A stretch of DNA of 36,716 bases from positions 1 through 36,716 of the forward strand of contig JAFVDW010000026.1 in NCBI GenBank assembly GCA_017478245.1, in the 5' to 3' direction. This DNA is from Lachnospiraceae bacterium (GTDB lineage Bacteria; Bacillota; Clostridia; Lachnospirales; Lachnospiraceae). The notes beneath the pieces were generated by a model, which did not search any database, was not told the DNA's origin, and saw nothing but the letters and a program-made list of their open reading frames with translations. Below, piece after piece: positions 3,359-24,732 of the stretch. Within the stretch, counting starts at the first letter, position 1, and each line of letters begins with the position of its first letter. Made by a program: the position numbers and the translations under genes.

Positions 3359-4111
3359 TCATCTATTGGTTTCATCATAAAATACCTTCACCAGTGTCAG
3401 TCCTTTGGCAGGCACCAGTGCTCCCGCCGCCGCCCGGCTGCCAGCCAGCAGAAGCTCCTCCATACTCTCCGGCGTCCGCCTGCCCATTCCCACTTCCAGA
3501 AGCGTCCCGACCAATATCCTTACCATGTGATGCAGGAAACCATTTCCCAAAAAGGTAAGCACTAACAGTCCATCCTGCTCGGTGATATCAATGGAATCAA
3601 TCCTTCTGACCGTAGATTTCTTTCCTTTTGTGGCGGAGGTAAAGGATTTGAAATCATGTTCCCCGCAGAGTAATGCCGCTGCTCTGCCCATCGCCTTCAG
3701 GTCCAGCTTCTCCGGTACCTCCCATGCGAACCTTCGCCAAAATACATTGGGAATACTGCTGTTAATGATGCGGTAGGTATAACATTTTCTGCTGGCATTC
3801 AGGCGGCTGTGAAAGCGAGGTGGTGCCTCACTGATCTCCACCACTGCAATATCCTCCGGGAGATAACGATTGATGTATGTCAGCATCTCCTCCACGGGCA
3901 TATCGCAGGCGGTATGAAAATTGGCAACCTGTCCCAACGCGTGAACACCCGCATCTGTTCTTCCGCTGCCCTGCACTTCAATGGTCTCTCCGCACATCCT
4001 CGAAAGCAGTACCTCCAGCTTTCCCTGTATCGTGTTGTCTGTAGAACCCTGTCTCTGCCAGCCTTGATAGCGGGTTCCCTCATATTGCAGCATCAGTCTG
4101 ATATTACGCAT
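3359..4111 (-). CDS. truA: tRNA pseudouridine synthase A
   Basis: A 250-residue enzyme that converts U38-U40 in the anticodon arm of tRNAs to pseudouridine. The family start IRLMLQYEGTRYQGWQRQ and the catalytic loop GSGRTDAGVHALGQ (nucleophile Asp at about residue 52) are intact, as are HHMVRILVGTLLEVG near the end. Length matches the bacterial family. The ATG overlaps the stop of the upstream AI-2E-family gene by 8 bases (ATGCGTAA), which points to translational coupling within an engB-permease-truA-reductase operon. Confidence 0.96.
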   Translation of the reverse strand: MRNIRLMLQYEGTRYQGWQRQGSTDNTIQGKLEVLLSRMCGETIEVQGSGRTDAGVHALGQVANFHTACDMPVEEMLTYINRYLPEDIAVVEISEAPPRFHSRLNASRKCYTYRIINSSIPNVFWRRFAWEVPEKLDLKAMGRAAALLCGEHDFKSFTSATKGKKSTVRRIDSIDITEQDGLLVLTFLGNGFLHHMVRILVGTLLEVGMGRRTPESMEELLLAGSRAAAGALVPAKGLTLVKVFYDETNR

Positions 4112-18036: not shown

Positions 18037-18124
18037 TAGGCGTTTGCAAAACTCCTATAATTGTTCATAAATTGTGCAATCGTACAATCATCACAACATC
18101 TGAAGGGAGTTTCGCAATTACCTA
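18037..18124. mobile_element. Small palindromic element (MITE-like), copy 1, 88 bp
   Basis: Terminal inverted repeats TAGGCGTTTGCAAAACTCC (left) and GGAGTTTCGCAATTACCTA (right) match at 15 of 19 positions. It is flanked by near-identical direct repeats, AGTTCTATGT at 18027-18036 and AGTTCTATAT at 18125-18134, which look like a target-site duplication. It shares its ends and the inner TTGTGCAA/TCGTACAAT stretch with the 227-bp copy at 23998-24224. No coding capacity. It lies between cdsA and dxr, so it is transcribed within that operon and can fold into a long hairpin. Confidence 0.75.
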
Positions 18125-18135
18125 AGTTCTATATT

Positions 18136-18161
18136 CAGGTACTTACGAAACTCTTATATGG
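18136..18161. repeat. Isolated half of the palindromic element
   Basis: CAGGTACTTACGAAACTCTT resembles the element's left end (TAGGYRNTTGCGAAACTCC) and directly follows the target duplication of copy 1. No matching right end was found, so it is a decayed or partial copy. Confidence 0.45.
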
Positions 18162-19810: not shown

Positions 19811-20362
19811 CTATACCGTCATGATCTCTTTGGATTTTGTCTCCATCAATGTATCAATCTCTTTAATGTATTTGTCCGTAAGCTTCTGAAGCTGTTCCTC
19901 TAACTGCTTGATCTCATCCTCCGAAACCTCAGTCTTCGCAAGCTTCTTAAACGCATCATTGCCATCTCTGCGGATGTTGCGGATCGCCACCTTCCCATCC
20001 TCTGCTTTCTTCTTGACCTCTTTCACCAGATCCTTTCTGCGCTCCTCTGTAAGCTCCGGAAATACCAGACGAATCACACTACCATCGTTAGACGGATTGA
20101 TTCCGATATCAGATGTCAATATAGCTTTCTCAATCTCGCGAATTAAGGATTTCTCCCATGGAGCAATCTGAATGATACGCGCTTCCGGCACCGTGATATT
20201 GCCCACCTGCTGAATAGGGGTGGGAGTTCCGTAATAGTCCACTCTCAATTTATCAAGCACATGTGGATTAGCACGTCCTGCGCGAATCGTGGCATAATCT
20301 GCCTCCAAAAACTCATATGCTTTTTTCATCTTGTCATCATACTGCTGTAATCTTACGTCCAT
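19811..20362 (-). CDS. frr: Ribosome recycling factor
   Basis: A 183-residue factor that splits post-termination ribosomes with EF-G. The family core is intact: ATIRAGRANPHVLDKLRVDYYG, TPTPIQQVGNITVPEAR, and the C-terminal helical arm LVKEVKKKAEDGKVAIRNIRRD. Length is exact for the family. It begins 8 bases after the pyrH stop, the nearly universal bacterial pairing. Confidence 0.98.
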   Translation of the reverse strand: MDVRLQQYDDKMKKAYEFLEADYATIRAGRANPHVLDKLRVDYYGTPTPIQQVGNITVPEARIIQIAPWEKSLIREIEKAILTSDIGINPSNDGSVIRLVFPELTEERRKDLVKEVKKKAEDGKVAIRNIRRDGNDAFKKLAKTEVSEDEIKQLEEQLQKLTDKYIKEIDTLMETKSKEIMTV

Positions 20363-23739: not shown

Positions 23740-23961
23740 TCATCCCACTGATATTCTTTTTTCCACATAACATCCTTTAATGAATTTATGGAAAAAAATA
23801 TCAGGAGATGACTCCCTTTTAAAACGATACCATAACTCCTCAGGCACCTCATAATATCGAATAATTTGTCCATCCTGGGCAAATTCTACCTCCAGAAGCG
23901 CCCTCTGGGCATCATATCCTGCCGACGCAATCGTCATTGTGGCAAATTTAAAGCGGAACAT
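23740..23961 (-). CDS. KTSC domain protein
   Basis: A 73-residue protein matching the KTSC fold: ATMTIASAGYDAQRALLEVEFAQDG, then a YYEVPEELWYRF block and SPDIFFHKFIKGCYVEKRI. KTSC domains are found alone or attached to some lysyl-tRNA synthetases, and their role is unknown. The ATG at 23961 follows a strong GGAGGGAG site; an in-frame start 12 codons upstream overlaps it. The palindromic element at 23998-24224 lies only 36 bases upstream, so it may supply or disrupt the promoter. Confidence 0.85.
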   Translation of the reverse strand: MFRFKFATMTIASAGYDAQRALLEVEFAQDGQIIRYYEVPEELWYRFKRESSPDIFFHKFIKGCYVEKRISVG

Positions 23962-23997
23962 AACACATTCTCCCTCCCTCTCACATAAGCTACCCAA

Positions 23998-24224
23998 TAG
24001 GCGCTTGCGATACTCCTATATTTGCTCATAATATTGTGCAAATCGTACAATTCCATAGCAGACACGCTCTCGCTCCAACCTCCCCGTAACGTCACATAAG
24101 GCGCCCGGCACTTACAGTGCCATAGTACGCCGCCTAAGTGCCGACGGCTCGCTAGGGTCTGCGTATGGAAATGTACACCTTGCACAATCACAACCATATC
24201 AGAAAAGAGCTGCGCAATCGCCTA
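23998..24224. mobile_element. Palindromic mobile element (MITE-like), copy 2, 227 bp
   Basis: Begins TAGGCGCTTGCG and ends CGCAATCGCCTA, flanked by a perfect 11-bp direct repeat AAGCTACCCAA (23987-23997 and 24225-24235), a clear target-site duplication. The inverted-repeat arms extend inward for about 66 bases: GTACAATTCCATAGCAGAC at 24045-24063 pairs with GTCTGCGTATGGAAATGTAC at 24157-24176. The centre holds further hairpins (GGCACTTA 24107-24114 with TAAGTGCC 24135-24142). It has no transposase and would need one in trans. It fills most of the 309-base gap between the KTSC and sigma-factor genes; the transposase family is not identified. Confidence 0.85.
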
Positions 24225-24270
24225 AAGCTACCCAAAGCTTCTCTTATATATGACAGGTTTTATCAATTTG

Positions 24271-24732
24271 TTACAATAAATTTCTAATTTTTTCCCGCAT
24301 GCGACACAGGCGCACTCTCATGTTTGCTTCCGTTATCCCCTCCAGTTTTGCCATCTCCCGATGGGAAAATCCCCACACAAAATGTCGTTCAAATCGTTTC
24401 AGCTCCTGCTTGGAGAACGTCTGATGGAGCAACAGCTCTAATTCTTTCCGGCGATATTCCATCTCCTCCCGTCCCATTTTCATCCATCCCTCGTCCATCT
24501 GCACCGTATGCTGCAGCGTTCTTTCCCATTCATGAATCTTATACTTTGCCACAAGCTTAAGCCACCCCACCTGATTAGGGTGAACCAGAAGACGGTCATA
24601 CTTCTGCCACGCCACTGTAAAAGTGTCTTGCACAATATCTTCCGTAAAATCTTTCTGAAGCAATCTTTTCTCTACATATCGGCACAGTTCATCATAATGC
24701 TCTTTATAAAACACTGTAAAACTTTCCTTCAT
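24271..24732 (-). CDS. RNA polymerase sigma factor, ECF-like
   Basis: A 153-residue two-domain sigma-70 protein. The region-2 block reads YVEKRLLQKDFTEDIVQDTF, continuing TVAWQKYDRL (about 19-48), and region 4 reads SKQELKRFERHFVWGFSHRE with the HTH MAKLEGITEANMRVRLCRMREKI (about 105-150). Group 4 (ECF) factors have this layout. The start has AAGGGG very close to the ATG plus GGGGG 12 bases away. It follows the small Xre gene by 17 bases; no membrane anti-sigma gene is adjacent, so control may instead be through the Xre protein. Regulon unknown. Confidence 0.9.
   Translation of the reverse strand: MKESFTVFYKEHYDELCRYVEKRLLQKDFTEDIVQDTFTVAWQKYDRLLVHPNQVGWLKLVAKYKIHEWERTLQHTVQMDEGWMKMGREEMEYRRKELELLLHQTFSKQELKRFERHFVWGFSHREMAKLEGITEANMRVRLCRMREKIRNLL

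Follow-up and report, generated by a model that had tools for sequence, protein, structure and literature searches.

A short mobile element of Lachnospiraceae carries a conserved structured core that recurs between four types of ends

The window analyzed here is a 36,716-nucleotide stretch of DNA from the draft genome of a Lachnospiraceae bacterium (G000; 2.49 Mb in 119 contigs, 95.29% complete). A 227-bp element occupies positions 23998–24224, between two minus-strand genes, one sigma-factor-like (both of its Pfam matches score under the curated cut-offs) and the other with a KTSC domain. It starts with TAGGCG, finishes with CGCCTA, and is flanked by exact copies of AAGCTACCCAA at 23987–23997 and 24225–24235, so that the palindromic element with a perfect 11-bp target duplication reported in a preliminary description of this DNA is correct in both its ends and its flanks. 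Terminal inverted repeats lie at 23998–24016 (plus strand) and 24206–24224 (minus strand). Folded as RNA, the plus strand reaches −75.5 kcal/mol against −54.2 for shuffled sequences (z −5.4) and the minus strand −97.6 against −72.8 (z −5.5); the nested hairpins noted earlier in the center of the element are real. A second, 88-bp copy lacking this center was found at 18037–18124, with flanks that match at 9 of 10 bases. Searching the window for the end pattern with up to three mismatches yielded 4 matches against 0.01 expected, namely, the two termini of each of the 227- and 88-bp copies. The earlier count of two full and two partial members of one family thus stands for the full copies, which form two size classes of a single family, and is not established for the partial ones: the sites at 18136 and 34826, proposed as single ends, are not counted because they carry 5 and 4 mismatches, respectively, and a further site at 20223 also has 5.

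We denote the family with TAGGCG ends F1. BLAST of the 227-bp query against its own genome hit 16 places, 12 of them long, and the end pattern occurs at 41 sites in this genome (1 for the reversed control); the relative G089 has 110 end sites when no more than one mismatch is allowed. Flanks resembling target-site duplications (TSDs) were identified for 53 of the 80 F1 end pairs; re-dealing the right flanks 50 times gave 2.06 such pairs on average and never more than 4. The scored duplications span 9 to 14 bp, and 47 of the 53 are 10 bp or longer; we read this as a duplication of about 10–12 bp of target, to within a base or two because the ends are TA-rich. The F1 family has therefore moved, and the proposed non-autonomous transposition with target duplication, as well as the expectation of further copies in the genome, is borne out. 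The terminal inverted repeats, duplications above chance, 12 long dispersed copies, and a length of 227 bp, too short for a transposase gene, are the attributes of a MITE.

At the site of insertion, the KTSC gene adjoins the sigma-like gene in 3 of 24 loci from relatives, L308 (G010), L315 (G014), and L323 (G028), and the core of the element described below is absent from all three, which fits an insertion at the window site. A clean empty site is not available because the DNA of these relatives is too diverged, the best sigma-like relative being 45% identical.

Ten small F1 copies, 78–113 bp in length, lack the long form, and 8 of these have TSD-like flanks, as do 42 of the 65 long copies; because the core-less copies are also flanked by duplications, movement requires no core in cis. 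Sequences of the core-less copies, read by eye, include at least two different junctions. An origin of the long form by later insertion of the core into an 88-bp element was considered and rejected, deletion being likelier given the differing junctions, and the small forms look like deletion derivatives at the sequence level. The preliminary description had also offered the scar of an internal deletion as an explanation of the center of the long element; the relationship appears to be the reverse, with the 227-bp center being a conserved fold and the core-less forms looking derived.

A search for the transposase partner, using PF01609 (DDE_Tnp_1) and Y1 profiles on draft genomes, identified no transposase gene between F1 ends in the stretches inspected. 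PF01609, the domain that a partner would carry if the element were of the IS4 type raised in the preliminary description, had no matches in the genome of the window or in G089; it matched in 8 of 18 genomes searched (one of the 18, G117, belongs to another family), and the inverted repeats around 12 PF01609 loci lack TAGG ends. Pairs of terminal inverted repeats 450–4000 bp apart were sought in the loci, with the inspection covering L235, L271, and L281, all of which enclose ordinary genes, and leaving out L225, L227, L228, and L258. Widely spaced end pairs in G089 likewise hold ordinary genes between separate small elements. The HUH transposase Y1_Tnp (PF01797), present in 49 of the 138 genomes of the genus, had no match in the draft genome of the window.

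The center of the 227-bp form matches our covariance model R2 on the minus strand (24030–24186, including the inner arms; 100.5 bits) and, judged by sequence comparison, is a conserved fold. The core is a structure of about 100 nt that is common to relatives of the same genus and consists of a P1 helix, a three-way junction, a P2 arm that extends into P3, and a two-base-pair hairpin (P4) with a GNRA-type tetraloop; the P3 loop comprises seven bases, most often GTATTTT. In the window copy, all on the minus strand, the inner P1 helix pairs GCAGAC (24157–24162) with GUCUGC (24058–24063), as assigned from the alignment, P4 is GC-GAGA-GC (24066–24073), and an extra hairpin lies within the P3 loop (24106–24121), a feature also present in the aligned long copies of the same genome. 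Among 30 sequences from the genus, 30 of the 41 pairs change on both sides, with a covariation score of 0.381 against 0.156 for shuffled alignments. In a broad alignment of 118 rows and 116 distinct sequences, which leans toward the model because it was fitted to the first version, 40 of the 41 pairs covary, and the score is 0.729, compared with 0.186 for shuffled and no more than 0.110 for slid versions. The P4 loop follows the GNRA rule in 111 of these 116 sequences, and the sequence of the outer arms varies freely, yet 94.9% of their cells are paired. The minimum-energy fold of the single window copy (minus strand) departs from the consensus inside the core, so the core fold rests on comparison. 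An RNA structure, the other explanation originally given for the center, agrees with this covarying fold. No Rfam family matched the window at gathering scores, and a permissive search of five loci (E up to 5) returned only miRNA, lncRNA, and snoRNA names, outside the core.

Using the first covariance model (R1), we identified the core in at least 101 of the 138 genomes of the genus and, across the family, in at least 168 of 397 genomes and 148 of 334 genera; these are lower bounds, given that at most 23 or 8 candidates were scored per genome and that stricter filters were applied. Model R2, run on a sample of 391 genomes of the class, gave 11 positive genomes, all Lachnospiraceae, in a sample of this one class with five further, negative genomes of the family and at most 375 genomes outside it. 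The core is thus spread through one bacterial family. It is not essential, since under the filters applied no core was detected in 37 of the 138 genomes of the genus; at the other extreme, G369 harbors 41 matches. Among the 80 matches listed, 60 have titles that name Lachnospiraceae or genera placed there, some of which we take to belong to this family, and 20 do not, nine of these naming Gastranaerophilales. G048, which is of the same genus as the genome of the window, is identical to Acetatifactor sp. SC0310_comb_2 over two stretches that were compared, and Acetatifactor is a member of Lachnospiraceae. The JAMPHU contigs (L172, L183, and others) bear the title Candidatus Gastranaerophilales, and their cores match the Lachnospiraceae model; perhaps, they come from a mislabelled bin. 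Plasmids yielded no match, and no viral contigs were found by the pattern; positions 561–683 of MT839508.1, an unannotated 4.2-kb record titled Bacteriophage sp., match weakly, at 72.6% identity across 58% of the query.

The core is present in mobile elements with four types of ends, F1 and three others. Ends of the F2 type (GTTACTGTTCACAC) form 16 pairs, 15 of which enclose a core and 13 of which have TSD-like flanks (shuffled mean 0.035), with 8 bp the commonest duplication length (5 of 13). All six pairs of F3 ends (GTTACAGTTCAGCC) enclose a core, and three have TSD-like flanks of 7–8 bp (shuffled mean 0.155). The six pairs of F4 ends (GTGTCAAAAGCC) also all enclose a core; within 3 bases of the pattern one is TSD-like (shuffled mean 0.0), and with an end shift of up to 9 bases, applied after the narrow shift had given this single case, five of the six are (8, 8, 8, 9, and 11 bp; shuffled mean 0.0). 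Several of the F2–F4 pairs come from the same genome, and F2 and F3, which are alike in their ends, may constitute one family. By eye, cores within one end type are more alike than cores of different end types, which suggests a common descent of ends and core. In G481, the cores at L145, L146, L149, and L151 are flanked, again by eye, by repeats resembling GGGGACAGTCCCCAA..TTGCAC, possibly a further end type. The occurrence of the core in families with four end types could be taken to indicate that it aids the movement of its own element, through synapsis, target choice, or guiding, by analogy with elements that contain an RNA or a hairpin. We regard such a role as improbable considering the duplications around the core-less copies and the lack of a Y1 (HUH) match in the genome of the window.

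Cores that are close to each other show a preferred arrangement. Of 337 matches, 28 neighboring pairs lie within 600 bp of each other: 21 in the order (−,+), 6 (−,−), 1 (+,+), and none (+,−). One (−,−) case, L176, is the shadow of a plus-strand match at 3759, which corrects the inverted pairs to 22 (−,+) against 0 (+,−). In 37 further contigs, we found five (−,+) pairs (L263, L267, L278, L279, and L282), one (−,−) pair (L272), and no (+,−) pair. Altogether, 27 inverted pairs stand 5′ to 5′, one of them (L129) including a weak fragment and several from a single genome, against none in the opposite arrangement. Inverted pairs were seen in L183, L172, L234, L195, L229, L006, L140, L150, G581, G495, and G423, among others. 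Head-to-tail arrays of cores with periods of 137 and 164 bp occur in G301 (L152, 717–995; L153, 484–1148), and a long, near-perfect palindrome of another kind is located close to a copy of the element in L002 (1846–1915).

Single copies of the core are informative with respect to constraint. A more sensitive search of 35 genomes picked for few or no matches gave one copy in 24, two or more in 8, and none in 3. In four of the genomes analyzed (G081, G191, G166, and G165), a full copy adjoins a gltB-like gene for the large subunit of glutamate synthase; a gltD-like gene was matched on the other side of the copy in G081, G191, and G165 but not in G166, which has a second, partial core match elsewhere. 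Given this synteny, the copies beside gltB appear to be vertically inherited. At this single syntenic site in four species, the 98-nt core is 95–99% identical in all six species pairs, whereas in five of the pairs the flanks are 17–38% and the gltB DNA 74–82% identical; in the close pair L354/L355, the flanks are 70 and 81% and the gltB DNA 95% identical. The arm of about 23 bp differs widely between L350/L351 and L354/L355, and its pairing is kept save for one mismatch each. Of the observations made, the nearly unchanged core beside gltB is the strongest indication that the fold is under selection.

This conservation bears on the possibility that the element is a plain selfish MITE, with a functionless fold produced by palindrome correction (template switching) during replication and shared by descent only. 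Palindrome correction is a known mutational process, and no linked gene was found among the open reading frames within 3 kb of cores at 154 loci; Pfam named four of the five largest clusters of such frames, all of them ordinary (ABC transporter, histidine kinase, oxidoreductase, and response regulator). An origin of this kind leaves unexplained both a core at 95–99% identity, loops included, beside hardly alignable flanks and the conservation of unpaired loops in 116 sequences, and we give it little credence. The conserved core probably does something. Most of the other single copies occupy differing genomic places. The syntenic pairs L092/L093 (closely related, with few differences) and L352/L353 (almost without differences) are uninformative, and L054/L197, L127/L373, and L051/L356 gave no convincing alignment; of the remaining syntenic set, L331/L365 was left unaligned, and four further pairs are the same place fetched twice. 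A terminus-like site was also considered, for G293, whose single copy is at 1.924 Mb and whose skew switches sign at 1.63–1.80 Mb, and was dropped because copies in other complete genomes are scattered.

Action as RNA and action as DNA can be weighed by comparing the numbers of G-U pairs and A-C mismatches. In the outer arms of the 116 sequences, G-U outnumbers A-C by 66 to 19 in 1465 cells, and an earlier count over 182 unique matches gave 106 to 34. In the core helices, the corresponding numbers are 52 and 42 in 3199 cells and, in the earlier count with all core helices taken together, 74 and 81. A wobble control on tRNAs gave 8 G-U and 0 A-C in 147 pairs, from seven tRNAs, which are too few. 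Together with the strand-specific loop rule in P4, the G-U excess in the arms favors RNA of the minus strand. Action as DNA could nevertheless account for the near equality of G-U and A-C in the core helices, which are Watson-Crick paired, for the lack of a rule of orientation toward genes, and for the lack of a minus-strand promoter in a sigma-70-type scan. Specifically, for 102 cores classed with a crude open reading frame finder, the two neighboring genes were opposite/opposite in 45, same/same in 28, opposite/same in 21, and same/opposite in 8; both orientations being common, the constant orientation to a downstream gene expected of a cis-regulatory RNA was not observed. The core might then be an extruded cruciform or a single-stranded hairpin bound by a DNA-binding protein, with RNA uninvolved; mini-hairpins of the GCGAAAGC type are very stable in DNA too. 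Against the GNRA tetraloop on one strand in nearly all sequences and the arm wobble pairs, we consider structured DNA unlikely, albeit less so than the preceding alternatives.

The sigma-70-type scan of 23900–24400 detected no minus-strand promoter, and no intrinsic terminator (a GC-rich hairpin followed by a T run) was found in the same interval. By eye, TGTAAYAAA followed by CATATA is common to the window (24236–24300, minus strand), L308 (~1975–2020), and L323 (~1985–2030); this motif, which the scan does not report, stands just upstream of the insertion and is perhaps a promoter of another sigma type for the KTSC gene. Given this position, the insertion may have placed the element in the KTSC 5′ leader, the core then being oriented in the sense direction.

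The closest known repeat families share some of these features and differ in others; BOX elements, for instance, have another modular build. Bacterial MITEs, as outlined in PMC10969869, resemble the 227-bp element in being short, without a transposase gene, and present in many copies with terminal inverted repeats and a target duplication; the element differs in its covarying three-way-junction core, which is found with different ends. MRSC-65-2 is structured as well and reaches dozens of copies in a genome, and in PMC11109978 the authors leave its action as RNA or DNA undecided; it is described there as a single long stem with UYCCGG repeats from diverse phyla, whereas our core is branched, has a GNRA-type hairpin, is confined to one family in the class-wide sample, and contains no UYCCGG repeat in its consensus. 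REP and REPIN sequences with their RAYT partners are also palindromic and interspersed, and inverted pairs occur, but they are defined as palindromes of 20–40 bp (PMC3116915, PMC3733652, PMC8266576); the present element instead has a much larger core, roughly 100 nt built around a three-way junction, along with target duplications, and its own genome gave no Y1 match. Pneumococcal BOX elements, compared by description rather than directly (PMC3049150), are interspersed structured repeats as well, from another taxon. Among the entries listed by the literature searches, none describes such an element; these searches did not extend to the supplementary motif list of PMC8040213, which reports 3161 candidate motifs, and the core motif may be among them.

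Taken together, these observations make it likely that the 227-bp element is MITE-like, is moved in trans, and carries a conserved fold that is recognized by a host factor. In this scenario, a transposase that duplicates about 10–12 bp of target would act on the ends TAGGYRNTTGCGAAACKC, and the cargo between them would comprise self-paired P1 arms of free sequence, the three-way junction, the P2-P3 arm with its seven-base loop, and the GNRA-type hairpin. The form seen by the host factor would more likely be RNA of the minus strand than DNA, whether single-stranded or cruciform, and the fold would be retained by more than one kind of transposon because the cell benefits from it or is at least not harmed by it. 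A more far-reaching proposal, which we advance tentatively, is that the core is an undescribed class of structured RNA in Lachnospiraceae, useful and single-copy in some species, that has become cargo of transposons with different ends and duplication lengths and has been amplified to tens of copies elsewhere.

As one more MITE family, the element would be unremarkable; its interest lies in a fold that is conserved and strand-specific, recurs in elements with four end types, and stays nearly identical beside gltB. For a structured nucleic acid present in 168 of 397 sampled genomes of this major family of gut bacteria, the lack of an Rfam match would mean that annotation has missed something substantial. 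Should differently ended transposons share the core as a functional RNA, mobile elements and non-coding RNA would be tied together in Lachnospiraceae, a connection open to direct testing in genomes with a single copy, of which the low-count set of 35 contains 24.
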